A DNA stretch of 64,000 nt from Syntrophomonas sp. DTU018 (GTDB lineage Bacteria; Bacillota; Syntrophomonadia; Syntrophomonadales; Syntrophomonadaceae), in NCBI GenBank assembly GCA_001513155.1, contig LFSR01000032.1, forward strand, positions 1-64,000, written 5' to 3'. Each line of letters starts with the position of its first letter. The first letter of the stretch is position 1. The position numbers and the translations under genes were made by a program. Positions 1,791 through 37,432 of the stretch are shown in pieces. Below the pieces are notes generated by a model. It had not been told where the DNA came from. It did no database searches and saw only the letters and a list, made by a program, of their open reading frames with translations.

Positions 1791-3524
1791 GTGAAGGCTA
1801 TTATAGTAGGCAATCCTAATGTAGGGAAAAGCTATGTATTCAATCGTCTCACTGGCCAGGAGGTTTTCGTCTCCAATTATCCCGGAACTTCGGTAGAAAT
1901 TAATCGCGGCTTTCTTACCGTTGGGAATAAATCCATAGAGCTTCTTGATATGCCGGGAGTATATTCCCTTAACAGTGGTACCCCAGAAGCCGCTATGCTG
2001 GTAGAGGCATTAAAAGAACCTCCGGACTTGATAATTCAGGTCCTGGATACAGTCAATCTGGAACGCAATCTGGTGCTTACCCTGGAACTAATGAAGGCCA
2101 ATCTGCCTATGGTTCTGCTCTTAAACCAGGTTGACCGTGCCCGGGAGATGGGTTTGAGAATTGACAGCCAGGTTTTATCCAGAGAACTAGGGTTGCCGGT
2201 TTTTCCATTTTCCGCCCTGACCGGGGAGGGTGTTTTAGATCTCCTGGAGCAACTGGCCAAGGGGGTTCCCCGCAGCAAGAAGGTTCAGGTAGTATCCCTG
2301 GAAACAGTGGAATGTCAAGGATGTGACAGGTGTGCATGCGGACCTGTCCTTAGCTGTGAAGGAGTGAACCTGAAACTGTTTGACCAGGCCCGCCTGCTGG
2401 CTGGCAAAACTACTACCAGAATAGAGCGAACTCAGATGCACTGGCTGGAAAAGGCTCAGAACTGGATTGATCAGCCTATTCTGGGCACTGTATTGCTGTT
2501 GCTCCTGGCCTATCTTTCCTTTGTGATTCTGCTGCAGTTTATCAATTTAAGTGAAGGGCCTATCAGCGCCCTGTTAGATCCGGTTAATCAACTGATAAGC
2601 GAGGCTATTGTCGAACTGCTGCCGGCCGGTATCATAGCCCAGGTGCTTTCCAAGGCAGTTCCTGAGGGTATTGTAATACCTTTTACCATTGTTATGCCCG
2701 CTATGCTGATGGTCAGTATTCTTATGGCCTTGATGGAAGACAGCGGTATCTTGCCCCGCTATTCGGTGGCTCTGGAGCGGGTAAGTCGGATTTTCGGCTT
2801 GTCCGGACAAGCAATTATACCTCTTACTCTGGGATTGGGCTGCCGAACCCCGGCAGTAGTAGCCACACGGATACTGCCTAACACTGCCCAGCGCTTTATA
2901 ACGGTGGCCTTGCTTAGTATTGTAGTGCCCTGTGCTGCTACCTTAGGCATTATGGCTTCAGTGATAGCCAAGTTCAATGCTTCCTTGGTGGCGGTAGCAG
3001 GGGCCCTAGTGGCAGTATTCCTGGGATTGAGCTTGGTACTGGGGCGTATTAATACCCAGCAGGAAGAATTCATTTATGAACTGCCTCCCCTGCGCATACC
3101 TAACTGGCACAATATTGCCATTAAGGTAAAAGCCAGGTTTACGGGCTTCTTTACCGAGATTCTGCCTCTCTTGCTGGTTATGAGCATTGCTATTCGCACC
3201 ATTATCGAGTCGGGGGTCCTGCAGCTTCTGGATGGGTTGGGACCTATAACCCGTGTTCTGTTCGGAATACCTTCCGAAGCTTTCGTAGCAGTTTTACTAA
3301 CGGTTTTTCAGCGCTACCTGGCACCGCTGTTATTGCTGAACTTGACTCTTACCCCCAGGGAAGCTACCATTGCCATCACTATGGTGGTTATATCTCTTCC
3401 TTGTCTGCCGGTTATGGTTATGACGATTAGGGAGTTGGGCTTAAAAGCTCTGGGCAAGATTATTGGCATGGGATTTCTGGCCTCATTTTTAGTCGGCATT
3501 GCATTAAATTTAATTTTGCCCTAG
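1791..3524 (+). CDS. feoB: Ferrous iron transporter FeoB, short form with Cys-rich linker
   Basis: GTPase-gated Fe(II) permease of the inner membrane. The N-terminal G domain has G1 GNPNVGKS (7-14), G2 in NYPGTS, G3 DMPG and G4 NQVD. After a short helical region, the polytopic gate-containing C-half runs from about residue 230 to the end. The length of 577 aa is below the usual 650-770. An unusual cluster CQGCDRCACG with a further Cys (C175, C178, C181, C183, C189) lies between the G domain and the membrane part. GTG 1791 follows GGAGAAGC. It sits behind a Fur box and is followed by feoA, the reverse of the order in the second feo locus of this window. Iron is the likely substrate; another divalent metal is possible. 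Confidence 0.88.
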   Translation: MKAIIVGNPNVGKSYVFNRLTGQEVFVSNYPGTSVEINRGFLTVGNKSIELLDMPGVYSLNSGTPEAAMLVEALKEPPDLIIQVLDTVNLERNLVLTLELMKANLPMVLLLNQVDRAREMGLRIDSQVLSRELGLPVFPFSALTGEGVLDLLEQLAKGVPRSKKVQVVSLETVECQGCDRCACGPVLSCEGVNLKLFDQARLLAGKTTTRIERTQMHWLEKAQNWIDQPILGTVLLLLLAYLSFVILLQFINLSEGPISALLDPVNQLISEAIVELLPAGIIAQVLSKAVPEGIVIPFTIVMPAMLMVSILMALMEDSGILPRYSVALERVSRIFGLSGQAIIPLTLGLGCRTPAVVATRILPNTAQRFITVALLSIVVPCAATLGIMASVIAKFNASLVAVAGALVAVFLGLSLVLGRINTQQEEFIYELPPLRIPNWHNIAIKVKARFTGFFTEILPLLLVMSIAIRTIIESGVLQLLDGLGPITRVLFGIPSEAFVAVLLTVFQRYLAPLLLLNLTLTPREATIAITMVVISLPCLPVMVMTIRELGLKALGKIIGMGFLASFLVGIALNLILP

Positions 3525-3838: not shown

Positions 3839-3896
3839 TTATAACGCTGGGTTATGTTATTCTGACAGTAAGTTAAATCCAATGGAGGGAGCAGTT

Positions 3897-4646
3897 ATGC
3901 TGCGGTTGGAACAGGTGAGCATGTCAGTCAACCAGAACAATGGAGACAATAAGGAAATACTGCACAACATTGATTTGGAATTCGATGCCGGTAAGCTGTA
4001 TGCTATAACCGGACCCAACGGCGGAGGGAAGACCTCTCTAGCCAAAGTGATTATGGGTATCTATGGTTTATCTTCGGGAAGAATTTACCTGAATGATGAG
4101 GATATTACCGATTTGACCGTGACAGAACGGGCTCGCAAGGGAATAGCTTATGCTTTTCAGCAGCCTCCTCGCTTTAAGGGCTTAACGGTAAGTGATCTTT
4201 TGAAAATAGCAGATTCGGAACTGGACATAATCGGACTGCGCAAGAGCCTGCGTGATGTGGGACTGTGCCCGGAAGACTATTTGGACCGGGATGTAGGCCC
4301 GGGTTTAAGCGGCGGGGAAATGAAGCGTATTGAAATATCTCAGGTATTGGCGCGCAGGGCAACAGTCAGTATTTTTGACGAACCCGAAGCAGGCGTGGAT
4401 CTGTGGACTATCCAGAGGCTGATAGGCATCATTGTCAACCGCTACAAGGATAATCCCAAAAATACCGCCATTATCATTACCCATAATGAAAACGTCCTGC
4501 CTATTTGTGATGAAATAATTGTACTGGAGGAAGGCCGGATTCGTTCCCGGGGCACCTACGAGGAGATATGGCCTTTAATCAGAGATGAAATTGAATGCAA
4601 ACGCAGATTAGAATGCCGGGGGGAAATGGGCTATGAAATTCAGTGA
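3897..4646 (+). CDS. sufC: SUF-type FeS assembly ATPase (SufC/SmsC)
   Basis: Cytoplasmic ABC ATPase (249 aa) of the SUF iron-sulfur assembly scaffold. Walker A GPNGGGKTS begins near residue 39, the signature LSGGEMKRIE near 137, and Walker B with FDEPEAGVD near 158; the last is diagnostic of SufC rather than of transport ABC proteins. ATG 3897 has GGAGGGA 6 nt upstream, whereas an in-frame ATG at 3882 overlaps that site. The gene overlaps the next by 14 bp. No sufS, sufU or sufD is adjacent, so this is the two-gene minimal form of SUF (SmsCB) known from archaea and anaerobic bacteria. Confidence 0.9.
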   Translation: MLRLEQVSMSVNQNNGDNKEILHNIDLEFDAGKLYAITGPNGGGKTSLAKVIMGIYGLSSGRIYLNDEDITDLTVTERARKGIAYAFQQPPRFKGLTVSDLLKIADSELDIIGLRKSLRDVGLCPEDYLDRDVGPGLSGGEMKRIEISQVLARRATVSIFDEPEAGVDLWTIQRLIGIIVNRYKDNPKNTAIIITHNENVLPICDEIIVLEEGRIRSRGTYEEIWPLIRDEIECKRRLECRGEMGYEIQ

Positions 4647-5556
4647 GATTGACGCTAGTTTATTAAGTACTATTGCTAATATTACTGAAGTCCCCAGTGG
4701 CGCAGTAAATATCCGTAAGGATGGACAACCCTTGATCCGGATGTCCTCGCCCAATATAACCATTAATCCCAAACAAGATAAACCCGGGATAGATGTTATT
4801 GTCAAACCAGGCACCAAAGGTGAAAGTGTGCATATTCCGGTCATAGTTACCAAAGCTGGCCTGCAGGATTTGGTTTACAATACTTTTGAAATCGGAGAGG
4901 ATGCGGACGTTACCATTATAGCCGGTTGTGGAATCCATAATGACAGCCACCAGAATTCCGGTCACGATGGCATCCACGAGTTTATCATAAAGCCTGGTGC
5001 CCGGGTCCGCTATGTGGAAAAACATTACGGGGCTGGCAGCGGCAGTGGGAAGCGGGTTTTGAATCCTACTACCATAGTGCGAATGGGCCGCGGGTCTTAT
5101 GCGGAAATGGAATTGGTGCAGATCAGAGGCGTTGATGATACCTACCGTAAGACCATGGGATATATGGAAGATAAGGCGTACCTGAAAATAGTGGAGCGGT
5201 TGCTTACCCATAATGAGCAAAAGGCTCAGTCGGAGATCGAAATCAACATAGAAGGTCAGGACGCATCAGCCCAAATTCTCTCCCGTTCTGTGGCTCAAGA
5301 TAGCTCCTATCAGGTATTTAAGGCAGCCATGATTGGCAAAGCGGCCTGTACCGGCCATGTAGAATGTGATTCCATTATTATGGGTAATGCGATTATTAAA
5401 GCTATTCCCTCCTTGGTAGCGGAGAATTCCGAGGCAGTTCTGACCCACGAAGCAGCCATCGGCAAGATTGCTGGAGAGCAGTTGATAAAACTGATGTCTC
5501 TAGGTCTTACCGAAACCGAGGCCATTAACACCATTATCGAGGGATTCCTGCGTTAA
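4633..5556 (+). CDS. SufB/SufD-family scaffold protein (SmsB, minimal SUF)
   Basis: SufBD beta-helix core protein of 307 aa, shorter than SufB (about 470) and SufD (about 430). Recognisable parts include IIAGCGIHNDS, GARVRYVEKHYG, a run of beta-helix repeats and the C-terminal SRSVAQDSS...HEAAIGKI...LMSLGLTETEA segment seen in all SufB/D. It should form a 2:2 complex with the upstream ATPase and build or carry FeS clusters. The start at 4633 overlaps the sufC-like stop, so the two are translationally coupled. Which residues hold the cluster is not evident; a Cys lies in AGCGIH and others at AACTGHVEC. Confidence 0.85.
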   Translation: MKFSEIDASLLSTIANITEVPSGAVNIRKDGQPLIRMSSPNITINPKQDKPGIDVIVKPGTKGESVHIPVIVTKAGLQDLVYNTFEIGEDADVTIIAGCGIHNDSHQNSGHDGIHEFIIKPGARVRYVEKHYGAGSGSGKRVLNPTTIVRMGRGSYAEMELVQIRGVDDTYRKTMGYMEDKAYLKIVERLLTHNEQKAQSEIEINIEGQDASAQILSRSVAQDSSYQVFKAAMIGKAACTGHVECDSIIMGNAIIKAIPSLVAENSEAVLTHEAAIGKIAGEQLIKLMSLGLTETEAINTIIEGFLR

Positions 5557-8410: not shown

Positions 8411-8455
8411 TATTAGGAAATCGATGTTAGGAAATTGCTGTCAAGGAGTTGTACG

Positions 8456-10729
8456 ATGACCCAGTTGAATCGCGGTTTGCTGCTGCACTACCCCATATGG
8501 GCAAAAATAATTCTTATGGTCGCCAGTGCCATCATGCTGCTGCTGGTAATTTCCCGGGCAGCGTGGGGCGAGGAGACCGGGAAAGCTTACCTGCTGGTCA
8601 TTGACAAGCTGAGCATTTACGATATTGATCCCCAGGTTACTCCTCACATCAGCAAACTGGTTGATGAAGGCGGAGTTGGCCTGGCCAGCAGCAGGACTTT
8701 AAGGGGCAAGAACACCCTGGATACCAGCCTCACTATCGGGGCAGGCAACCTGGGAAGGGTATACGGAAACGGCATTATGGCTTTTAACCGGGACGAATAC
8801 CTGGAGGACAGGGGCCAGACGGCGGGACATTTATACCGGAATTTAACTGGGATAGATCCCGGCTCTGCTGCCTGCCTGCTGGTAAATCTCCCGGAAATAA
8901 GTACCCATATGGCCGAAGAAAGTGTTAATACCCTGCCCGGTGCCATGGGAGAGGTACTCAGAAACCATGGATATACCGTATGTGTACTGGGCAACGGTGA
9001 TACAGGTACCAGCCAGCTTCGCGCTGCTGCAGTTATTGGCATGGATGCCAGGGGACAGATCCCGCTGGGGGATATAGGGCCCAATACAGTGCACAGTTTA
9101 ATAGACAGCTATTTGAGCCTGGAAACCAACTACGGCTACCTGCTGCAGCAAGTGGAAAACTTCCATTCCGCAGCAGACCTATTTGTGATAGATCTGGCCG
9201 ACCTCAGCCGGCTGGAAACCGCGGACACAGCCTTTCCTGACCAGGCTATGGCCGAAAAAAAACGGCGCCTGCAGATGATTGACTACTTTGTAGGGGAAAT
9301 TGCAGCCCGGGTAAATCCGGACCGGGACTTGCTGATGATTGTAAGTCCCTCCCCCAACCGTGAACAGACTAAGCTCAAGAACACTTTTACTCCGGTTATT
9401 ATCTGGGGCAAAGGCTATACCACCGGAGGATTGACCTCAGCTGCTACCCAGCGTTCCCTGGTGGTAGCTAATACCGATATTGCCCCCACTGTACTGGACT
9501 ATTTCGGTTTGTCCGATGATACCGGTACCATGATCGGGCGCCCCATCCGGGTTGAGCCCAGTGATCAGAGCATGCTGGCAGAAGCTCAGGAGTTGAGCAC
9601 CAAAACCAGTATGGTCAATAGGCTGAGAGTACCTCTTATTAAGGGTTATGTGCTTTTTCAAATAATAGCCATTCTGCTGGCTATGGTAGCCCTATTCTGG
9701 GTGCCGGAAGTGGCCAAGCATATCAAGCTGGCGATCATAGCTCTGGTAGTAGTGCCTCTGATTTACTTGTTCCTGACCATACTGCCCCTGTCAGCAGATT
9801 GGATGTATATTGTTATGGCCATAATCTTAACCATAACAGTTACCCTGCTGTTGAAAAAGATGGCGGGGGGCAATGCATACGGAGCCTTTTATATTAGCGT
9901 CATACTGACGGTCATAGCCTTAAACATAGATCTCATGACCGGTTCCAATTTAATTCATTATTCCATTCTGGGATATGATCCCATGGCTGGAGCCCGCTAT
10001 TATGGAATCGGCAACGAATATATGGGTATACTGCTGGGCAGTTCTATTGCTCTGGCTGGGTCTTTTTATCAGAGATATCCCCAGCGGGGCTGGTTGATAT
10101 TAATCGCCTTTTTATTTGTATTTCAAGCGGTAGTAATTGCTTCTCCCCAGGTAGGAGCCAATTCTGACGGGATGCTTACTGCGCCGGCAGCATTTTTGGT
10201 GACCTTACTGCTGCTGGGAGAATTCCGGATTCGCCCCCAGACGGTTCTGCTGGTCATGGCGGGAGTCATATTGGTTGCCGTAGGATTCACTGTATATGAT
10301 ATGAGCAGACCGGTAGAACTGCAGAGCCATATAGGCAGAGCTGCCCACCAGGTTTTAAGCGGCGGTTGGGAGGAAGCCTGGACCATCATCTCCCGGAAGC
10401 TGGGGATGAATATTAAACTGATTCGCTCCACTATCTGGAGCTGGGTGTTCATGGTTATGCTCCTGGTGCTGGCTTTACTGGTATACCGGCCTTTAGGCGC
10501 CATGAAGCAGCTGCGCAAGGATAAACCTTATATAGTTAAGGCATTCGGAGGAATTATTACCGGGGCTTTGGTAGGATTGGTGATAAACGATTCGGGGATC
10601 GTGGCTGCTTCTACCACCAGCATTTACCTAGTGGTGCCTTTATTGCTGCTGATACTTTATTATGAGCTTAATCGTTCTGCTGTCACCGCTGATGGGAATG
10701 AAAGGCAGGGCGGAAATGATGACTCGTAG
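8456..10729 (+). CDS. Alkaline-phosphatase-fold domain fused to a polytopic membrane domain
   Basis: Function unknown; 757 aa. Residues about 15-38 form a membrane anchor. About 45-385 is an exported domain with the order of the alkaline phosphatase superfamily: KAYLLVIDKLSI at the first metal site, a Thr-rich GKNTLDTSLTIGAGN segment at the nucleophile position, and VANTDIAPTVLDYFGL near its end. The usual SDHG metal motif reads VSPSPN, so catalysis may be lost or altered. The rest (about 390-740) has ten or so hydrophobic helices and a conserved-looking GARYYGIGNEYMG loop. ATG 8456 follows AAGGAG. The next gene overlaps by 14 bp. A role in cell-envelope polymer or lipid modification is a guess from architecture. 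Confidence 0.75.
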   Translation: MTQLNRGLLLHYPIWAKIILMVASAIMLLLVISRAAWGEETGKAYLLVIDKLSIYDIDPQVTPHISKLVDEGGVGLASSRTLRGKNTLDTSLTIGAGNLGRVYGNGIMAFNRDEYLEDRGQTAGHLYRNLTGIDPGSAACLLVNLPEISTHMAEESVNTLPGAMGEVLRNHGYTVCVLGNGDTGTSQLRAAAVIGMDARGQIPLGDIGPNTVHSLIDSYLSLETNYGYLLQQVENFHSAADLFVIDLADLSRLETADTAFPDQAMAEKKRRLQMIDYFVGEIAARVNPDRDLLMIVSPSPNREQTKLKNTFTPVIIWGKGYTTGGLTSAATQRSLVVANTDIAPTVLDYFGLSDDTGTMIGRPIRVEPSDQSMLAEAQELSTKTSMVNRLRVPLIKGYVLFQIIAILLAMVALFWVPEVAKHIKLAIIALVVVPLIYLFLTILPLSADWMYIVMAIILTITVTLLLKKMAGGNAYGAFYISVILTVIALNIDLMTGSNLIHYSILGYDPMAGARYYGIGNEYMGILLGSSIALAGSFYQRYPQRGWLILIAFLFVFQAVVIASPQVGANSDGMLTAPAAFLVTLLLLGEFRIRPQTVLLVMAGVILVAVGFTVYDMSRPVELQSHIGRAAHQVLSGGWEEAWTIISRKLGMNIKLIRSTIWSWVFMVMLLVLALLVYRPLGAMKQLRKDKPYIVKAFGGIITGALVGLVINDSGIVAASTTSIYLVVPLLLLILYYELNRSAVTADGNERQGGNDDS

Positions 10730-10859
10730 ATCGCGTCGTATACGTGAATATAATGATAAAGATTGGGAAAAGACTGTTGCCCAGCAGAGGCTGAAGTATA
10801 ACCTGTGGGGTATTATCGCTATTCTGATCATTATAGGATTATACTTTTTGTCCCGGTGA
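10716..10859 (+). CDS. Small single-pass membrane protein
   Basis: A 47-aa protein with a basic N-terminus (MMTRRSRRIRE), a charged stretch and one hydrophobic helix (GIIAILIIIGLYFL) at the C-terminus. It overlaps the end of the phosphatase-fold gene by 14 bp, so the two are translationally coupled and probably work together. The ribosome site (GGGCGGAA) is only moderate. No family recognised. Confidence 0.6.
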   Translation: MMTRRSRRIREYNDKDWEKTVAQQRLKYNLWGIIAILIIIGLYFLSR

Positions 10860-12733: not shown

Positions 12734-13114
12734 TTGCAGTCTTTGGGGCGACATGTGTTAGCCGAAGTTTACGGCTGTCGTTTTGAGGCATTGAACGATA
12801 TCAAGTTTGTGCAGGATGTTATGATCAATGCTGCTTTAGAGGCTGGAGCGGAGATTAGAGAGTTTGTCTTTCACAAGTTTAGCCCACAGGGAGTCAGTGG
12901 TGTTGTGGTGATATCTGAGTCCCACCTGGCGATTCATACCTGGCCTGAACTGGGTTATGCAGCGGTAGACGTTTTCACTTGTGGAGAAAGGGTTAATCCC
13001 TGGGATGCGTGTAATTATCTAGCAGAAAAATTTGGCTCTACCTATGTAAACGCCAAGGAAGTTCAAAGGGGATTAATCCATGAGCAGGAGGAGCGCCTGG
13101 TGGCAAATATTTAG
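12734..13114 (+). CDS. speD: S-adenosylmethionine decarboxylase proenzyme
   Basis: Pyruvoyl enzyme that forms decarboxylated SAM, the aminopropyl donor for spermidine. The protein is 126 aa, the usual size of the Bacillus/Thermotoga-type single-chain proenzyme. LGRHVLAEVYGC opens the protein; the self-cleavage site is ISESHLAIHTWPE, with Ser expected to become the pyruvoyl group. FHKFSPQGVSGVVV and AAVDVFTCG are also diagnostic. The start is TTG 12734, 8 nt after GGGAGG. A 5' leader of about 70 nt contains a small GTTTGG/CCAAAC hairpin. No spermidine synthase gene lies in this window. Confidence 0.93.
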   Translation: MQSLGRHVLAEVYGCRFEALNDIKFVQDVMINAALEAGAEIREFVFHKFSPQGVSGVVVISESHLAIHTWPELGYAAVDVFTCGERVNPWDACNYLAEKFGSTYVNAKEVQRGLIHEQEERLVANI

Positions 13115-13163
13115 GAGGGATACTATTTTAGTAGACCGAAGAAGCTCTCTCATGGATGTTTAT

Positions 13164-13209
13164 TAGACGCCTTGCAAGCTGGTAGGCAAGTAAGGCGTCT
13201 AATCATTTT
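13164..13209. terminator. Bidirectional terminator between speD and the 13199-13471 gene
   Basis: TTAGACGCCTTGC and GCAAG-T-AAGGCGTCTAA form a 17-bp-class stem (13163-13202) with one bulge, followed by TCATTTTC on the plus strand. It overlaps the stop codon of the minus-strand gene. Confidence 0.65.
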
Positions 13210-13471
13210 CTGGAATTATTTTAATATGATCCAGTCCATGCAGTTCACCCAGGTGTTCTTTTATATGTCCTGCTTCCTCAGGTTCACAGCGTATGGTCAA
13301 TATATAATAGCCCTGATCAAAAAATTGTCTTGCCCCACTCCGGTGATCACCTTCCCAAGATTCTCCTGATTTCTTTATGGCAGCTTCAACTTCATAACCG
13401 CGGTTGCGCAAATCAGTTAAAGCAGAAGCAGCCTGGATTTGACTGGTTGCCGATGCAATTAAAGTTATCAT
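13199..13471 (-). CDS. Small hypothetical protein, ACT-like in size
   Basis: Not recognised. A 90-aa cytoplasmic protein. The strand-helix pattern (MITLIASATSQ, a helix with ALTDLRNRGYEVE, YYILTIRC, a helix with HIKEHLGEL, DHIKIIP) suggests a ferredoxin-like alpha/beta fold similar in size to ACT or PII-like domains, but no motif confirms it. ATG 13471 is preceded by AGGAGGAG at a good distance. It is transcribed alone between two convergent or divergent neighbours. Confidence 0.6.
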   Translation of the reverse strand: MITLIASATSQIQAASALTDLRNRGYEVEAAIKKSGESWEGDHRSGARQFFDQGYYILTIRCEPEEAGHIKEHLGELHGLDHIKIIPEND

Positions 13472-13607
13472 GGTTCTCCTCCTAATAAGGTTTTCATAAT
13501 GTATATTTTCTATATAATAAGACTAAGTTTGGCTTATGATAGTATAATTAGCTTGACTCATTAGCCACAAGTTTAAATAGGTAATTATTGCGCAAGCAGG
13601 ATAAGAG

Positions 13608-14405
13608 TTGATTCTGCCGAAATTTTATAGAGTGATGCATTTTGTCGAGGGGGACACAGAGTTTATGGATTATTTATTTGCCCGGGATTATCGCCACCAG
13701 CTTATTGATGTGGAACGAAACTTTAAAGCAGGATTGCTTAAATCCTGGCCGGAAATAGAAACCTATGTTAACCGGCTGGAAGGTGATACTACCTGGGATC
13801 ATCTTGCTTTAATGACTTTGGTTTTTTACGATCACCTGCATGTAGACAACCGCCTGTCCACGGTAATGGCATATATCTTCAAGAACTTGTACCTGGCTCA
13901 GTCGATTCATTGCAGCATCAAAAACGATGAGGAAGGTCAGGAATACAATCAGGATCTGCAATTTGCCATACTCATTGGGGATTACACCTTTGGCTATATT
14001 ATGCAGATTCTTTTGGACCATAAAGCTGAGCGGGTTTTGAGTTCTTTAGCCTCTATGATCTGTACCATAAGTGAAGGGCTGGTACGTAAATATCATCAAG
14101 CCTGGAATACTATTAAGGAGATTGATCAGATCAAAGCTCCTCTTTATGCTACTGCTTTTCAAACCGCTGCCCAATTGGCCGGGGCAGGAAAGGAATCTGT
14201 CTATTATCGTCTGGGACATGATCTGGGTATGGCTGTAGAACTGCTGCATTTAGGGGTAAACAATCAAGTTGACCAGTATGTTCATAGTAGTTATGAGATA
14301 CTGACCAGCCTGAAAAATGGACAAACCTACAAAGGTGTGATAGAGAGAGTAATCAATGAATTGCACGACCTGGCCTGCAGCCAGGAGCGGGCGGCTGTAA
14401 TATAA
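13608..14405 (+). CDS. HepS-like small subunit of a long-chain polyprenyl diphosphate synthase
   Basis: 265 aa. It resembles component I of heptaprenyl diphosphate synthase: it is all-helical, lacks the DDxxD motifs, and has the family segment seen here as LIGDYTFGYIMQILLDHKAE, then SMICTISEGLVRKYHQ. In Bacillus this non-catalytic subunit sets prenyl chain length together with the catalytic HepT. Here the catalytic partner would be the synthase at 17667-18632. Alternative starts exist; TTG 13608 is used but its ribosome site (AGGATAAG) is weak. It heads the menaquinone gene group, though a terminator-like hairpin separates it from ubiD. Confidence 0.6.
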   Translation: MILPKFYRVMHFVEGDTEFMDYLFARDYRHQLIDVERNFKAGLLKSWPEIETYVNRLEGDTTWDHLALMTLVFYDHLHVDNRLSTVMAYIFKNLYLAQSIHCSIKNDEEGQEYNQDLQFAILIGDYTFGYIMQILLDHKAERVLSSLASMICTISEGLVRKYHQAWNTIKEIDQIKAPLYATAFQTAAQLAGAGKESVYYRLGHDLGMAVELLHLGVNNQVDQYVHSSYEILTSLKNGQTYKGVIERVINELHDLACSQERAAVI

Positions 14406-14418
14406 AATTGTATGTGCC

Positions 14419-14470
14419 AAAGCTTATCTGGCTATGACCAGTGTGGTTGCAGGCCTTTTAAGCTTTTTTT
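14419..14470 (+). terminator. Terminator or attenuator before ubiD
   Basis: AAAGCTTA (14419-14426) pairs with TAAGCTTT (14459-14466) around an inner CTGG/CCAG hairpin and runs into TTTTT. The ubiD ribosome site follows directly. Confidence 0.6.
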
Positions 14471-14490
14471 TGTGATAGGAGGATAAATCT

Positions 14491-15939
14491 ATGGCCTATA
14501 AAGACCTGCGTGAATTTGTGGAGCGTCTGGAAAGAGAAGGCGAGCTTAAAAGAATCAAAACCGAGGTAGATTCGGAACTGGAAATCACGGAAATAACGGA
14601 CCGGGTGAGCAAGGCCTACGGCCCGGCTTTATTATTTGAAAACGTCCGCGGCTACAGCTGGCCGGTTTTAATAAATGCCTTCGGCAGCAAGAAAAGAATG
14701 GCTATGAGTTTGGGAGTCAATGATCTGGATGAAATTGCCCGGGACATAGTCAGTTTTATGGAGATAGCCGACCAGGTACCCCAGACCATGATGGACAAAG
14801 TTAAACTGCTGCCCAAAATCGCCCAGGTAGCCAACTTCATTCCCAAGTTGGTACGCCATGGCGCCTGCCAGGAAGTGGTGGAAAGCAACCCCTCCCTGGA
14901 CCTGCTGCCGGTATTAAAATGCTGGCCGGAAGATGCAGGACGCTTCATAACCCTGCCCCAGGTATACACCAAGGATCCCGAGACAGGCAAGCGCAACGTA
15001 GGCATGTACCGGATGCAGGTGTATGACAGCAAGACCACTGGAATGCACTGGCATACCCATCATGATGGTGCGGCCATTTATCGTAAAAACTGCCAGTTGG
15101 GCAAACCTACGGAAGTAGCAGTGGCACTCGGAGGAGACCCTGCCATAACTTATGCCGCTACGGCGCCTTTGCCCCCCGGTATCGATGAACTGCTTTTTGC
15201 CGGTTTCCTGCGCAAGAAACCCGTTGAATTGGTGAAATGCAAAACCGTTGACCTGGAAGTGCCCGCTGATGCGGAAATCGTTTTAGAGGGTTATGTTGAC
15301 CCCTGGGAGCGCCGGATTGAAGGTCCTTTTGGGGATCATACCGGATATTATTCCCTGGCTGATGAATACCCAGTTTTTCATTTAACGGCTGTAACTCACC
15401 GGAAAAACCCTATATATCCTGCTACCATAGTAGGCCGTCCTCCTCAGGAAGACTGCTATATGGCTCTGGCTACCGAGCGGATTTTCCTGCCCTTATTGAA
15501 GTTCCAACTGCCGGAGATAGTTGATATGCACCTGCCCATGGAAGGGGTATTCCATAATTGTGCCCTGGTCAGCATCAAAAAATCCTATCCCGGTCATGCC
15601 CGCAAAGTTATGAGTTCTCTCTGGGGAATGGGACAGATGATGTTTGCCAAGTTTATCATCGTAGTAGATGAAGATGTGAATGTACAGGATGTTTCCGAAG
15701 TGATGTGGAAGGTATTTAACAATGTTGATCCCCGCCGGGACACCATGATTGTTGATGGACCTTTGGATGTTTTGGATCATTCAGCCCCTACTCCTTTAAT
15801 GGGTTCCAAGATGGGCATTGATGCCACACGCAAATGGGTCAGTGAGGGACATCCCCGGGAATGGCCCAACGATATCAAAATGTCCAGGGAAATAGTAGAA
15901 CTGGTGAACCGAAAATGGAGTGAATACGGCCTTGATTAA
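14491..15939 (+). CDS. ubiD: UbiD-family decarboxylase
   Basis: Prenylated-FMN-dependent aromatic acid decarboxylase of 482 aa, full length. Family features include GMHWHTHHDGA, a Glu-Arg-Glu-type active region within RRIEGPFGDHTGYYS (Arg and Glu near residues 273-276), and the C-terminal GIDATRKW. Together with the UbiA-type prenyltransferase and UbiX next to it, it would decarboxylate a prenylated naphthoate in menaquinone synthesis by the futalosine route. ATG 14491 follows TAGGAGG. Its end overlaps the ubiA-like gene by 20 bp. Confidence 0.92.
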   Translation: MAYKDLREFVERLEREGELKRIKTEVDSELEITEITDRVSKAYGPALLFENVRGYSWPVLINAFGSKKRMAMSLGVNDLDEIARDIVSFMEIADQVPQTMMDKVKLLPKIAQVANFIPKLVRHGACQEVVESNPSLDLLPVLKCWPEDAGRFITLPQVYTKDPETGKRNVGMYRMQVYDSKTTGMHWHTHHDGAAIYRKNCQLGKPTEVAVALGGDPAITYAATAPLPPGIDELLFAGFLRKKPVELVKCKTVDLEVPADAEIVLEGYVDPWERRIEGPFGDHTGYYSLADEYPVFHLTAVTHRKNPIYPATIVGRPPQEDCYMALATERIFLPLLKFQLPEIVDMHLPMEGVFHNCALVSIKKSYPGHARKVMSSLWGMGQMMFAKFIIVVDEDVNVQDVSEVMWKVFNNVDPRRDTMIVDGPLDVLDHSAPTPLMGSKMGIDATRKWVSEGHPREWPNDIKMSREIVELVNRKWSEYGLD

Positions 15940-16780
15940 GATAAAAGACTATTTGGATATGCTGGATTTCAGCAACACTCTGTTTGGATTGCCTTTTGCC
16001 TATTTGGGTGCCTTCCTGGCTCAGGACGGGCAGGTAACCCTGCACCAATTTTTCTGGATTACGGTAGCTATGGTAGGTGCACGTACGGCCGCCTTGAGTT
16101 TAAACCGCTTGATAGATTTGCCTTATGATGCAGCCAACCCCCGTACTGCCAGCTGGGTGATGCCGTCAGGCCGATTGCCTACTGGCCTAGTATGGGCAGG
16201 AGTTTTCTTTTTTCTGGCCTTATTATTCCTGGCGGCCGCCCAGTTGAATCCCCTGTGCTTGAAACTGGCCCCCCTGGCGGTAATAGTGCTGTGGGGTTAT
16301 TCCTATACCAAGCGTTTTACCTGGTGGTGCCATCTAATACTGGGCATGGCCATTGGGATGGGACCCATAGGGGCCTGGTTTGCCATTACCGGCACTTTTG
16401 ACTGGCAGCCCTTTTTGCTGGGGGCAGCGGTAGCTTTCTGGATTGCCGGTTTTGATACCATGTATGCCTGTCAGGACATAGAGTTTGACCGTCAGGCAGG
16501 GCTGTATTCAATTCCGGCCCGATTCGGAGAAACCGGAGCTCTGCTGTTTTCCGCTGTATTCCATTTTTTCACCGTAGTCTTCCTGGTACTGGCCGGATTG
16601 GTTTTACACTTGGGAGGATGGTATTATCTGGGAGTGTGCATAGCCGCTCTGGTGCTGATATATGAACATTGGGTCGTACGGCCGGGAGACTTGACCCGGG
16701 TGAACCAGGTTTCTTTTCAGTTTAATCACTATGTGGGTTTAATCATATTAGTGACCGCTCTGGTAGATATTTATCATTGA
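15920..16780 (+). CDS. ubiA: UbiA-family prenyltransferase
   Basis: Integral membrane aromatic prenyltransferase of 286 aa with about eight helices. The first Asp-rich motif is NRLIDLPYDAANPRT, and the second is DTMYACQDIEFDRQAG followed by SIPARFG. This is the UbiA/MqnP type that attaches the polyprenyl chain. It overlaps ubiD by 20 bp if GTG 15920 is the start; TTG 15932 is an alternative. One departure from the family is VMPSGRL where most members read xLPxG. The substrate is inferred from neighbours. Confidence 0.9.
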   Translation: MNTALIKIKDYLDMLDFSNTLFGLPFAYLGAFLAQDGQVTLHQFFWITVAMVGARTAALSLNRLIDLPYDAANPRTASWVMPSGRLPTGLVWAGVFFFLALLFLAAAQLNPLCLKLAPLAVIVLWGYSYTKRFTWWCHLILGMAIGMGPIGAWFAITGTFDWQPFLLGAAVAFWIAGFDTMYACQDIEFDRQAGLYSIPARFGETGALLFSAVFHFFTVVFLVLAGLVLHLGGWYYLGVCIAALVLIYEHWVVRPGDLTRVNQVSFQFNHYVGLIILVTALVDIYH

Positions 16781-16793
16781 CTATAGTAATGTA

Positions 16794-16870
16794 AGCAGGA
16801 GTATTAGCCGGGTCGTTCCGGGACTCCTCACCTGCAACCCGTTGGATTACTTCGGTGCGAAGGGTAAACC
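16794..16870 (+). repeat. Truncated copy of the 210-bp palindromic repeat
   Basis: It begins AGCAGGAGTATTAGCCGGG and follows the copy at 58440-58645 through the GCCTGCAAC-like and TTCGGTGCGAAGGG segments, then diverges. The right half is missing; a possible remnant CGGCTAA lies at 16898-16904. It sits between ubiA and ubiX inside the operon. Confidence 0.8.
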
Positions 16871-16926
16871 TACTGTCGTTAACCCACTGTCAAAATACGG
16901 CTAAGGTAAAAGGAGTTTTTTCAGCA

Positions 16927-17004
16927 ATGATACGAAAAAAGAGCTTTCATTCGCTGTGGCTTGGGTTGCTAATGATAATTGCAGGAAAAAGGGAGGCTGC
17001 TTAA
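16927..17004 (+). CDS. Candidate 25-aa membrane peptide coupled to ubiX
   Basis: ATG 16927 opens a 25-codon frame with a basic start (MIRKKS), a hydrophobic core (LWLGLLMIIAG) and stop TAA overlapping the ubiX ATG as TAATG, the same coupling seen between hemC and cobA/hemD. AAAGGAG lies 11 nt upstream. It may be a real small protein or only a translational-coupling leader restoring ubiX expression beyond the inserted repeat. Confidence 0.35.
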   Translation: MIRKKSFHSLWLGLLMIIAGKREAA

Positions 17005-17594
17005 TGCCCAGAAGATATATTGTGGGGATAACCGGTGCCAGTGGAGTAATATATGGATTACGCTTGCTGGAGGTCCTGCTGCAGCAGCAAACCGAAGTGC
17101 ACCTGGTGGTGACCGGTCCAGGGCGTATAGTAATTGAGCAGGAAATGGAGTGGGACATGCAGGGCGATTGGAAAGCCGCCTTACGGGCCAACCTGCCGGA
17201 AGGAAATATTGCTGTTTATGACGATGCTGATATCGCCGCTCCTATAGCCAGCGGTTCCTTTCGAGTAGACGGCATGGTAGTAATTCCCTGTACTATGGCC
17301 AGCATTGCTGCCCTGGCGGGCGGATATGCCCGCAGTTTGCTGGAAAGAGCAGCTGATGTAATGCTGAAAGAAAAGAAGCCTTTGCTGTTAGTACCCAGGG
17401 AAACTCCGCTGAGTTCCATTCACCTGCGCAATATGCTGCTGTTAGCGGAAGCCGGGGCCCATATTATTCCGGCTATGCCTGCTTTTTATACCCATCCTGC
17501 CACAGTGGAGGACATGGTGAACTTTGTAGTCGGGAAAGTTCTGGACGCTATGGGCATAGAGCACAATCTGTTTAAACGTTATGGTGAGCCTTAG
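17004..17594 (+). CDS. ubiX: UbiX-family flavin prenyltransferase
   Basis: Makes the prenylated FMN cofactor needed by UbiD from FMN and dimethylallyl phosphate. 196 aa, standard length. Rossmann-like start YIVGITGASGVIYGLRLLE, then SGSFRVDGMVVIPCTM and a C-terminal PLLLVPRETPLSSIHLRNM, all hallmarks of UbiX/Pad1. ATG 17004 follows GGGAGG; earlier in-frame codons lack a ribosome site. It completes the UbiD/UbiA/UbiX set. Confidence 0.95.
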   Translation: MPRRYIVGITGASGVIYGLRLLEVLLQQQTEVHLVVTGPGRIVIEQEMEWDMQGDWKAALRANLPEGNIAVYDDADIAAPIASGSFRVDGMVVIPCTMASIAALAGGYARSLLERAADVMLKEKKPLLLVPRETPLSSIHLRNMLLLAEAGAHIIPAMPAFYTHPATVEDMVNFVVGKVLDAMGIEHNLFKRYGEP

Positions 17595-17666
17595 GGTCAG
17601 TATGGCTTTAACCGGCCAGAACCTTTATAATGGTGTAGTAATTCCTGCTTGAGGGGAGAAAATAGG

Positions 17667-18632
17667 GTGGAATTTGATTTATTCAAGTTGGTACGCAAGG
17701 AGATGGAATTAGTCGAGCAATCCCTGTACCAGCATGTTAATACTTCAGAACAAGTCCTCAGCGAAGCTTCAACTCATTTAATCAAGGCGGGTGGAAAGAG
17801 GATACGGCCTGGTTTTGCTCTGCTGGTGGCGCGCATGTACCGGGACGATATCGGCTACGCTATTCCTCTGGCTACTGCTTTGGAACTGGTGCATATGGCC
17901 ACCCTGGTTCACGATGATGTAATTGATAATTCAGAGGTCCGCCGGGGCACGGGAACGGTTAAACGCCTGTGGGGCAACCGGGTAGCTATATATGCGGGCA
18001 ATTTTGTATTTGCCAGGGCTTTGGACCTTATAGCTTCCTATAACCGCCAGGATATTCTGGAAGTAGTAGCTGATGCCAGCATGAAGATTTGCCAGGGAGA
18101 AATTGAGCAGATGCTCAGCTGTTTCAATGTAAACCTGGGCTTAAAGAACTATCTGCGGCGGATTGAACGCAAAACTGCTCTGCTTATATCCCTGAGCTGC
18201 CAGGTTGGAGCTATGCTCTCCACTTCCAACCCAAAGGAAATCGAGGCTTTGAGAAGATACGGATACGATCTGGGGCTGGCTTTTCAGATAACCGATGATA
18301 TTCTGGATTTTGTTGCCGATGAAGCTACTCTGGGCAAACCCACCGGAAGTGACATCAGGCAGGGAGTCATCACTCTGCCGGCTCTGTATGCGCTGCATCA
18401 TGATGCCCGGCGGGATGAACTAGCCCAGCTGCTGTCTTCTCCTCAGGCTTGCCAGGATAACACCCAATATATTATTGACATTGTGTGCGAGTCAGATGGT
18501 ATTGAATATGCTTATTCAGTCAGTCAGCATTATGCTCACCGCTCCAAGCGTCATTTAGCTATTCTGCCGGATACACCAGTAAAAGAAACCCTTTTGGAAC
18601 TAGCCGATTTTATTCTGACCAGAGATTACTAA
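17667..18632 (+). CDS. hepT: Polyprenyl diphosphate synthase, catalytic subunit
   Basis: Trans-prenyltransferase of 321 aa that extends the isoprenoid side chain for menaquinone. GGKRIRPG lies near residue 43, the first Asp-rich motif is HDDVID (near 85), the second is TDDILDF (near 212), with LGKPTGSDIRQG after it. GTG 17667 is preceded by GAGGGGA; an in-frame TTG at 17649 would bury that site. The product length is not evident from sequence; the symbol follows the likely HepS partner at 13608. Confidence 0.9.
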   Translation: MEFDLFKLVRKEMELVEQSLYQHVNTSEQVLSEASTHLIKAGGKRIRPGFALLVARMYRDDIGYAIPLATALELVHMATLVHDDVIDNSEVRRGTGTVKRLWGNRVAIYAGNFVFARALDLIASYNRQDILEVVADASMKICQGEIEQMLSCFNVNLGLKNYLRRIERKTALLISLSCQVGAMLSTSNPKEIEALRRYGYDLGLAFQITDDILDFVADEATLGKPTGSDIRQGVITLPALYALHHDARRDELAQLLSSPQACQDNTQYIIDIVCESDGIEYAYSVSQHYAHRSKRHLAILPDTPVKETLLELADFILTRDY

Positions 18633-35305: not shown

Positions 35306-37432
35306 ATGCCAAATAAAACTATTACTATCGCCCTGGCGGGCAATCCCAATTCCGGGAAGACTACTATCTTTAACAATTTAACCGGAGCCCGCCAACATGT
35401 AGGAAACTATCCCGGAGTTACCGTGGAAAGAAAAGAAGGCCGGGTGATTTATGGGGGTTACGATATTAAAGTGATTGATTTGCCCGGTACTTACAGTTTG
35501 ACCGCCTATTCTCCCGACGAATTGGTGGCGCGCAATGTTCTCATTGAGGAAAAGCCTGATGTAGTAGTCAATATTGTGGATGCTTCCAATCTGGAACGCA
35601 ACCTGTATCTGACCACTCAACTAAAGGAACTGGAGGTTCCTTTGGTATTAGTTCTGAATATGATGGATATTGCCGAGAAAAGCGGTATGAAAATAGATAT
35701 CAATCTATTGTCCCAGTTGCTGGGAGCACCTATTGTTACAGTAATAGGTACCAAGAATCAGGGAACTGTAGATATACTGAAAGCGGTGCTGGATACTTAT
35801 GAGGGGCGCATAAAGCTGACTTCACGAACGGTAAGATATCACCACGAAGTGGAAGATGAGTTAACCGTTCTGCAAAACACACTGGCTGACCAGGTAGTAA
35901 AGATGAAAGTGGCGGCAGGAACGGCCGGCAGCTATATGGTCCAGCCCTCTTATCCGCTGCGCTGGGTAGCCGTGAAATTACTGGAAAACGACCGGGAGAT
36001 AATCAACAAAGTAAACAGCTGGCCTGGCAGTGACAAGATAATGGCGGCAGTGAAAAAAAGCCGGGATCGCATCAGAGAAATCTTACAGGATGATCCCGAG
36101 CTGGTTGTAGTGGATGGACGCTATGGTTTTATTCGCGGAGCTTGCCAGGAAGCAGTTACTTTCAGCGGAACCAACCAGATTACCACCACTGAAATAATCG
36201 ACAAGGTATTGTTGAATAGGGTACTGGCTTTGCCGATCTTTTTGGGGATCATGTGGTTGCTGTTCCAGTTGACCTTCACTCTGGGTGCTCCCCCTATGGA
36301 GTGGATAGAAGCTGGTTTTGCCGCTTTAGGCGAGTGGGTTAGCAGCCACATGCCTGAAGGATTATTGCAGTCCCTGATAGTTGACGGAATTATCGGCGGT
36401 GTAGGCGGAGTGGTAGTATTCTTGCCCAATATAATGCTGCTGTTTTTGGGTATTGCTTTTCTGGAGGCCACCGGTTATATGGCCCGGGCAGCCTTTGTTA
36501 TGGATAAGATAATGCACCGGGTGGGCCTGCACGGCAAGTCATTTGTTCCCATGTTAACCGGATTCGGGTGCAACATTCCCGCCATCATGGCCACCAGAAC
36601 TTTGGAAAATCCAAGAGATCGCTTGGTTACCATGCTGGTGACTCCCTTTATGAGCTGCGGAGCCAGACTGCCAGTATACTCCCTGTTGATTGCCGCCTTT
36701 TTTGCCCCGGAAGTTGCCGGCAATGTACTGTTTTCCATCTACCTTATAGGAATACTGATGGCCATGCTGATGGCCAAAGTGTTTAAGACCTGGCTGGTAC
36801 CGGGAGAGTCGGAGCCTTTTGTTATGGAACTGCCTATTTACCGGATGCCCACCCTGAAAAATCTCCTGATTCATATGTGGGAAAGAGCCTGGTTATACCT
36901 GAAAAAAGCCGGTACTATCATACTGGCAGCATCTATACTTATCTGGGGATTGTTTACCTTCCCCACTGTGGATGAAAACGGACAGCCTTACGCAAATGCG
37001 ATCCAGCAGATGGAAGAAAGCTATGCCGGTCAGATTGGCAAGGCTATCGAGCCGGTGCTGGCTCCCCTGGGTTTTGATTGGCAAACCGGGATTGCTCTGG
37101 TAGCTGGATTTGCTGCCAAGGAGGTAGTGGTAAGTACTTTAGGGACTCTATACAGCATTGGGGATGAAGAGGCGTTAGCTGAGGGTGAAGCAACCGCTGC
37201 CAAGGACTTTGCCCAGAGAGCCAGGGAACAATCGGGGTTTACTCCCTTTACTGCTTATATATTAATGCTGTTTACCCTCCTGTATTCGCCCTGTGTGGCT
37301 GCTATCGCGGTAATAAAACGAGAAACCAACGGATGGAAATGGCCTTTATTCACTATGGCCTATACAACAGCTCTGGCCTGGATAGTATGTTTCCTGGTCT
37401 ATCAAGGAGGCCGATTGGTGGGATTGGCCTAA
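35306..37432 (+). CDS. feoB: Ferrous iron transporter FeoB, full-length
   Basis: 708-aa GTP-dependent Fe(II) permease. G1 GNPNSGKTT (near residue 10), G2 NYPGVTVERKEG, G3 DLPGTYSL, G4 NMMD; then a helical spacer and the polytopic gates with GFGCNIPAIMATR (near 425) and SPCVAAIA near the end. Length and order are canonical, unlike the short paralogue at 1791. It is under a clear Fur box. It may be the main iron importer, leaving the short form a special role. Confidence 0.96.
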   Translation: MPNKTITIALAGNPNSGKTTIFNNLTGARQHVGNYPGVTVERKEGRVIYGGYDIKVIDLPGTYSLTAYSPDELVARNVLIEEKPDVVVNIVDASNLERNLYLTTQLKELEVPLVLVLNMMDIAEKSGMKIDINLLSQLLGAPIVTVIGTKNQGTVDILKAVLDTYEGRIKLTSRTVRYHHEVEDELTVLQNTLADQVVKMKVAAGTAGSYMVQPSYPLRWVAVKLLENDREIINKVNSWPGSDKIMAAVKKSRDRIREILQDDPELVVVDGRYGFIRGACQEAVTFSGTNQITTTEIIDKVLLNRVLALPIFLGIMWLLFQLTFTLGAPPMEWIEAGFAALGEWVSSHMPEGLLQSLIVDGIIGGVGGVVVFLPNIMLLFLGIAFLEATGYMARAAFVMDKIMHRVGLHGKSFVPMLTGFGCNIPAIMATRTLENPRDRLVTMLVTPFMSCGARLPVYSLLIAAFFAPEVAGNVLFSIYLIGILMAMLMAKVFKTWLVPGESEPFVMELPIYRMPTLKNLLIHMWERAWLYLKKAGTIILAASILIWGLFTFPTVDENGQPYANAIQQMEESYAGQIGKAIEPVLAPLGFDWQTGIALVAGFAAKEVVVSTLGTLYSIGDEEALAEGEATAAKDFAQRAREQSGFTPFTAYILMLFTLLYSPCVAAIAVIKRETNGWKWPLFTMAYTTALAWIVCFLVYQGGRLVGLA

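Follow-up and report, generated by a model that had tools for sequence, protein, structure and literature searches.

A degenerate phosphatase-fold domain fused to a candidate GT-C(B)-type transferase domain in a membrane protein of Clostridia-like Bacillota

Introduction

What might a membrane protein do that pairs an exported phosphatase-like domain with a bundle of membrane helices and carries the name of no protein family? The question is raised by a gene of Syntrophomonas sp. DTU018, located in the 64,000-nucleotide stretch of contig LFSR01000032.1 that was analyzed here (the window). An earlier note, made from the sequence alone, had described the product as an alkaline-phosphatase-like domain with an altered metal motif, followed by about ten membrane helices and overlapped at its end by the gene of a small basic peptide. 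It had likened the arrangement to enzymes that modify envelope polymers.

The phosphatase-fold/membrane fusion and the small overlapping gene are both present (Table 1). We consider it rather probable that the large protein is a divergent membrane glycan transferase of the GT-C(B) type (the WaaL/Wzy/SEDS class) that carries a degenerate phosphatase-fold domain on its outer side. This reading draws on the computed folds, the conservation of the outer face, the family-wide loss of a catalytic motif, a profile link to Wzy/WaaL proteins, and a neighboring GT4 gene.

Table 1. Features of the locus and of tandem paralogues. Coordinates refer to the window unless a locus is named.
Feature	Coordinates	Strand	Basis or remark
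Probable ribosome-binding site AAGGAG for ATG 8456	8443..8448	+	sequence
Large gene, 757 aa: anchor helix, degenerate alkaline-phosphatase-superfamily domain, GT-C(B)-like membrane domain	8456..10729	+	ATG at 8456, stop 10727-10729; relatives found
N-terminal hydrophobic helix (signal anchor), residues 14-31	8495..8548	+	DSSP on model
Exported alkaline-phosphatase-superfamily domain, residues 40-368, SPSP at 297-300	8573..9559	+	model, structure, profile
V-S-P-S-P-N, residues 296-301, at position of iPGM TADHGN	9341..9358	+	hhalign register
Membrane domain, residues 373-751, 11 helices, GT-C(B)-like	9572..10708	+	model, structure, profiles
Outer-face motif GARYYGIGNEYMG, residues 512-524	9989..10027	+	R514, Y516, N520 122/122; E521 120/122
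Outer-face motif P-Q-V-G-A-N-S-D-G, residues 564-572	10145..10171	+	P564, G567, G572 122/122
Long outer loop, residues 617-659	10304..10432	+	H625, K648 122/122; R647 120/122
N-D-S-G, residues 711-714, outer end of last helices	10586..10597	+	N711, D712, G714 120/122
47-aa basic single-pass membrane protein, 14-nt overlap with large gene	10716..10859	+	lineage-restricted accessory
Tandem paralogues	L378:688-5169	-	both copies in one open frame, 1494 codons
Tandem paralogues	L379:574-5022	+	
Tandem paralogues	L380:715-6142	-	

Results and Discussion

A two-part protein of a widespread, unnamed family

The reading frame of the large gene lies where the earlier note had put it, and one copy is present in the genome. 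The AlphaFold2 model of the protein (pLDDT 91.1, pTM 0.87) consists of a helix at residues 14-31, an alpha/beta domain at approximately 40-368, and membrane helices between residues 373 and 751. The C-terminal part is polytopic as described, with a count on the model of 11 helices instead of about ten.

No Pfam or NCBIfam model exceeded its cut-off in the query, nor did any in 10 relatives scanned with Pfam and 4 scanned with NCBIfam, and no match to a characterized family was obtained, in agreement with the earlier note, which knew of no enzyme that the arrangement matched. The PDB was searched by sequence, with the protein and with its profile as query, and yielded nothing useful, the best profile row being an unrelated repeat protein. 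We found no description of a phosphatase-fold/membrane-transferase fusion in the open-access literature searched.

A search for relatives gave matches in 49 of 61 genomes, the query's own included. A profile built from 71 sequences found matches at E ≤ 1e-3 in 211 of 299 genomes sampled from the phylum; by our reading of the table by eye, 26 of these matches are weak (E above 1e-10), and the other 185 have E values of 5.5e-30 or lower. Among the named carriers are Thermoanaerobacter, Caldanaerobacter, Thermoanaerobacterium, Desulforamulus, Caldicoprobacter, and Natronincola, and the gene is also found in a few metagenome-assembled genomes (MAGs) of Actinomycetota and Armatimonadetes. Elsewhere, the query genome has two SEDS matches and two Wzy_C matches, and the large protein therefore adds to these.

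Conserved residues of the membrane half lie on the predicted outer face

The family was aligned using open reading frames of at least 690 aa, and the resulting 122-row set excludes sequences containing at least five X. Conservation is highest in the membrane half of the protein. Thirty of its residues are conserved at ≥95% across the 122 sequences, and 29 of these lie on the predicted outer face, including D492, D508, R514, Y516, N520, E521, P564, and G567 in the first part of the domain and H625, R647, K648, W661, N711, D712, and G714 further on. Counts for the motif GARYYGIGNEYMG were also made in a 99-row alignment. The predicted topology is supported because the short inner loops are richer in lysine and arginine (averages of 1.9-3.5, four flanking residues on each side included) than the short outer loops (0-0.4).

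Section 11 of PMC10920833 describes conserved residues on the outer face in all of the transferase families of this kind that it covers, and, for clans GT-C1 and GT-C2, a long outer loop close to the C-terminus that contains conserved residues. On the predicted topology, the family shows both the outer-face conservation and a long C-terminal outer loop, with H625, R647, and K648 within residues 617-659.

Structure and profile comparisons point to the WaaL/Wzy/SEDS class

Folded alone, the membrane domain reached a pLDDT of 91.0 and a pTM of 0.90, and Foldseek returned no match for it at E ≤ 1e-3. VIA-align was used to re-align the 1000 top Foldseek chains, 970 of which could be aligned. The first eight ranks are all either SEDS proteins (seven rows: 8bh1, 6bar, 6bas, 6pl5, 8p1u, 6pl6, and 8tj3; RodA/FtsW, GT119) or the O-antigen ligase WaaL (7tpg; CAZy GT121; Z 8.9, 250 residues), with Z values of 8.0-9.2 over 207-250 residues, rmsd of 4.9-5.9, and Foldseek E above 1e-3; by the program's own warning, Z below ~13 in helical bundles may mean a common arrangement only. 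Rank 9 is a GPCR (Z 7.0, 155 residues), and mostly GPCRs follow from there on. The search with AlphaFold2 models of both halves that had been proposed earlier was thus clear for the phosphatase half (see below) and gave, for the membrane half, a list topped by SEDS and WaaL at E values above the threshold; the fold is computed for both halves, less firmly for the membrane half. Because the SEDS and WaaL Z values may reflect common helical arrangements, independent profile evidence was sought.

Profiles were compared with those of SEDS (PF01098), Wzy_C (PF04932), MurJ (PF03023), MFS (PF07690), PMT_2 (PF13231), and EpsG (PF14897) proteins from genomes of the same phylum, after sequences outside length limits had been dropped from these sets, and of UbiA neighbors. 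In hhalign, the 122 family membrane domains aligned with 34 Wzy_C proteins at a score of 40.1 (P 2e-4); the alignment is collinear and spans 243 columns (23-280 of the family, 39-301 of Wzy_C). The same sequences gave 26.6 with SEDS (P 0.015), 23.4 with EpsG, 20.8 with MFS, 20.0 with PMT_2, 15.6 with MurJ, and 15.2 with UbiA. The unrelated forward controls had P ≥ 0.036, and reversed targets scored 14.2-25.0 (P ≥ 0.022), the reversed EpsG set (25.0) being about level with the forward SEDS set. All six random half-samples of 51 rows agreed, with scores of 37.9-45.0 for Wzy, 24.4-29.0 for SEDS, and at most 23.4 for the five other controls. For scale, the SEDS and Wzy profiles score 71.1 against each other. 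A built-in profile comparison gave 38.0 for Wzy_C (P 3.8e-4) and 28.8 for SEDS (P 0.0079). An early, smaller hhalign set had given only 31.0 for Wzy (P 0.0043), and larger alignments raised the score; the best hhalign probability is a modest 46%.

These profile comparisons relate the family to known members of GT-C(B)/clan GT-C1 through Wzy_C. The SEDS signal (P 0.003-0.015) is weak and would be insufficient by itself. At the level of single sequences, a Pfam scan of 71 family membrane domains produced chance-level families only, with neither PF04932 nor PF01098 among them.

The family is not a standard O-antigen ligase

For the residues of WaaL, we relied on section 11 of PMC10920833, from which the roles of Arg-191, Arg-265, and His-313 are taken: Arg-191 of the SRGA motif binds the lipid phosphate, and His-313 of the HN motif is the acceptor base. 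An HMMER alignment located Arg-191 in TRGA (SRGA-type), Arg-265 in a GxRxxxW-type motif (GRxxxW), and His-313 in HN. We found no counterpart of Arg-191 in the family, the column being glycine in 71 and aspartate in 28 of 99 rows. The Arg-265 region falls on the SHxGR...GG.E...RK loop without a correspondence of individual residues. H625, an invariant residue of the long loop, is not aligned with His-313, the profile alignment stopping before HN. The motif GARYYGIGNE (GARxYGIGNE) is set on RxxSxxxPN of O-antigen ligases with the arginine and asparagine aligned. In one alignment PxLGxN falls on the PDLGT motif of SEDS, and the SEDS alignments end before the essential aspartate of the SEDS long outer loop.

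With no arginine at the place of Arg-191 and no aligned HN, the family falls outside the standard O-antigen ligases. It resembles WaaL and the Wzy polymerases in the profile link, in outer-face conservation, in having a long C-terminal outer loop, and, more tentatively, in predicted fold, and differs from them in having no Wzy_C match and in its N-terminal phosphatase-like domain. From SEDS proteins it is set apart by the weak profile score and the lack of a PF01098 match. The model and the alignments suggest that the active site likely lies in the membrane half and not in the phosphatase half. Of the earlier likening to envelope-polymer-modifying enzymes, the link to envelope polymers is supported, and the phosphatase half is probably not the enzyme.

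The same domain could belong to a transporter or flippase of a lipid-linked substrate with an outer binding domain: it is polytopic and adjoins a GT4 gene in part of the family, and the conserved outer-face pocket could be a translocation vestibule. We regard this as unlikely, given that the MurJ and MFS profile scores are at background, that conservation is limited to the outer face when a transporter would be expected to conserve inner residues too, and that SEDS and WaaL top the structural list.

The exported half keeps a phosphatase fold and has lost its metal motif across the family

By model and profile, the exported domain belongs to the alkaline-phosphatase superfamily as a fold, as the earlier note had claimed. 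VIA structural alignment of residues 40-368 with the phosphoglycerate mutase (iPGM) 1o98 gave Z 23.4 and rmsd 2.9 over 243 residues. Phosphoglycerate mutases are the best structural rows, NPPs and sulfatases come next, and the Foldseek matches include LtaS, YejM (6vat, 6xlp), and MCR-1. An hhalign comparison with 29 iPGM proteins of related genomes, from which sequences outside length limits had been left out, gave P 7.1e-9 and set TADHGN on VSPSPN.

The reported replacement of the SDHG motif by VSPSPN was read correctly, and examination of the metal ligands in homologues extends it to the whole family: none of the 122 aligned sequences, the query among them, has a DH pair at this position, and position 298 is proline in 107. 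A sequencing slip or a quirk of one genome is ruled out, since the same loss is seen in 122/122. The C-terminal metal histidine is not kept either (aligned region KNTFTP; column 309 is asparagine in 73 and aspartate in 13 of 122). Other positions are conserved: residue 50 is aspartate in 103 and asparagine in 16 sequences, and D249 and R252 are present in all 122. By motif, D50 and D249 fit the positions of two ligand aspartates. Column 87, which in the register of the iPGM motif presumably corresponds to the nucleophile, is mixed (T 28, S 23, P 20 of 122).

Because the DH pair is missing family-wide, the phosphatase-like half is probably non-catalytic, and may be a binding domain that does without metal phosphoester chemistry. 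It shares its fold with iPGM and other alkaline-phosphatase-superfamily enzymes (PF01676, PF00884, PF01663), and differs from them in the lost DH pair and histidine and, unlike iPGM and its relatives, in being exported and fused to a membrane part. These losses, together with the mixed nucleophile column and the location of the most conserved residues in the membrane half, make it quite improbable that the protein is a working phospho-transfer enzyme or phosphatase of the EptA/LtaS/PIG-N kind that modifies envelope polymers through this domain, even with a fold that fits and two retained aspartates.

The membrane helices of YejM precede its periplasmic domain. A YejM/PbgA-like sensory role, in which a pseudo-hydrolase regulates another enzyme in response to an envelope lipid or glycan, would match the degenerate exported domain joined to membrane helices and the YejM rows among the Foldseek matches, and has a slim chance, since here the order of parts is reversed, the membrane half is far larger, with about twice as many helices, and the invariant charged residues of the outer-face motif set look enzymatic.

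A GT4 glycosyltransferase gene recurs beside the family gene

A unique full-length gene is present at 78 loci, 61 of which are flanked by 1300 bases or more on each side. In 24 of these 61, a GT4 glycosyltransferase gene adjoins the family gene on the same strand, upstream in 22 and downstream in two (L082 and L096). The 22 include three loci (L055, L093, and L109) in which the upstream GT4 frame overlaps the family gene. No other GT4 frames were found in the 731 kb of flanking sequence of the 78 loci. Because the loci are related, the 24 are not independent events, yet both arrangements occur, and the GT4 gene is the only one that recurs directly beside the family gene in different arrangements. 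In close Syntrophomonas relatives, no GT4 gene lies within about 6 kb (L031, L032, and L045 lack a GT neighbor).

Pfam confirmed the GT4 identity of five neighbors. NCBIfam related five GT4 neighbors to many GT4 subfamilies, none shown to reach its cut-off, and the neighbors therefore give no sugar specificity. In L046 (1879-11583), the family gene follows a GT4 gene, with genes for Wzz, a DegT aminotransferase, and a Bac_transf sugar transferase nearby, a setting that looks exopolysaccharide-like. Neighbor names were mostly assigned by eye. We rejected a function drawn from most of the other neighbors (among them trpS, speD, alaS, parA/parB, and arginine deiminase), which differ by lineage.

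In other Syntrophomonadaceae and Thermincola-like genomes the gene is present twice, usually in tandem. In the three tandem loci fetched (Table 1), one copy keeps E521, and also R647 in two of the three, and the other copy has D521 with R647 replaced (T, I, S). The second copies in L080 and L097 show the D pattern. This sequence pattern suggests that the E-type and D-type copies are two specialized partners.

Proposed role in the assembly of an envelope polymer

For the substrates (donor, acceptor, and product) and the chemistry, we infer the following scheme. In the cytoplasm, a glycosyltransferase (in many cases the GT4 enzyme encoded next to the family gene) would charge a polyprenyl-(di)phosphate carrier with a short glycan, and the loaded carrier would be flipped to the outer side. 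There, the outer-face pocket (R514, E521, H625, R647/K648, and N711-D712) could bind the lipid (di)phosphate, and the large protein would transfer the glycan: as a polymerase, to the end of a growing chain; as a ligase, to an acceptor in the wall or to a lipid. The phosphatase-like domain may gate the pocket or bind whichever of donor and acceptor carries the phosphate, with no cleavage in either case. We liken this built-in partner domain to the class B PBPs that partner SEDS proteins.

We see about an even chance that the family as a whole is a widespread, unnamed class of GT-C(B) polymerases or ligases of Clostridia-like Bacillota and neighbors, in which a dead phosphatase-fold domain is the partner of the transferase, which is often paired with GT4, occurs in some lineages as tandem or same-frame E-type/D-type pairs, and makes an unrecognized envelope polymer. 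Of the undescribed protein system proposed earlier, the envelope link and the absence of a characterized family hold up, and the small gene as a core part does not. If the proposal is true, a membrane enzyme that assembles glycans and has no Pfam or NCBIfam name is present in most of the genomes sampled from the phylum. Such an enzyme would stand beside the SEDS and Wzy-type enzymes and point to an unstudied envelope polymer, and it would represent a new branch of GT-C(B) enzymes in which a phosphatase fold has turned into a non-catalytic partner domain. The role is testable because several carriers are cultured, including Thermoanaerobacterium saccharolyticum (locus L087), Thermoanaerobacter wiegelii, and Desulforamulus species.

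The small overlapping gene is a lineage-restricted accessory

The 47-aa protein, with a basic N-terminus and one hydrophobic stretch, is encoded as described earlier, in overlap with the end of the large gene. Clear relatives of it occur at four of 22 readable related loci (L031, L045, L005, and L006), with a weaker candidate at L043. Its Ka/Ks is 0.10 between the query locus (L001) and L031 and 0.065 between L005 and L006 (44 and 55 codons, respectively); the large gene gives 0.097 and 0.145 for these two pairs. Because it is kept in relatives and has low Ka/Ks, we consider the small gene real and not a chance frame. It was not found next to L032, though the large protein there is 72% identical, and is absent beside most other family genes. 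We therefore rejected it as part of the core system and, since it is found only in close Syntrophomonas-like relatives, regard it as an accessory; its co-occurrence is real and weaker than the earlier note had supposed. In L101 and L081, small YtxH-like membrane proteins start shortly after the family gene and, by eye, are unrelated to the 47-aa protein.

Other features of the window

Downstream of the large gene, positions 12734-18632 hold SpeD-, UbiD-, UbiA-, UbiX-, and polyprenyl-synthase-like genes (names by eye). The order GT4, family gene, SpeD, prenyl synthase, UbiE, UbiD, and UbiA recurs in Desulfotomaculum-type genomes, and the locus therefore looks ancestral. Two further observations were made by eye. 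The product of a FeoB-like gene on the plus strand (1791-3524) has an insert rich in cysteine (ECQGCDRCACG) that separates its G domain from its membrane part, and a second FeoB-like gene (35306-37432) is without it. At 3882-5556, also on the plus strand, a gene for a SufC-like ATPase is followed by one for a short (307 aa) SufB/SufD-like protein.
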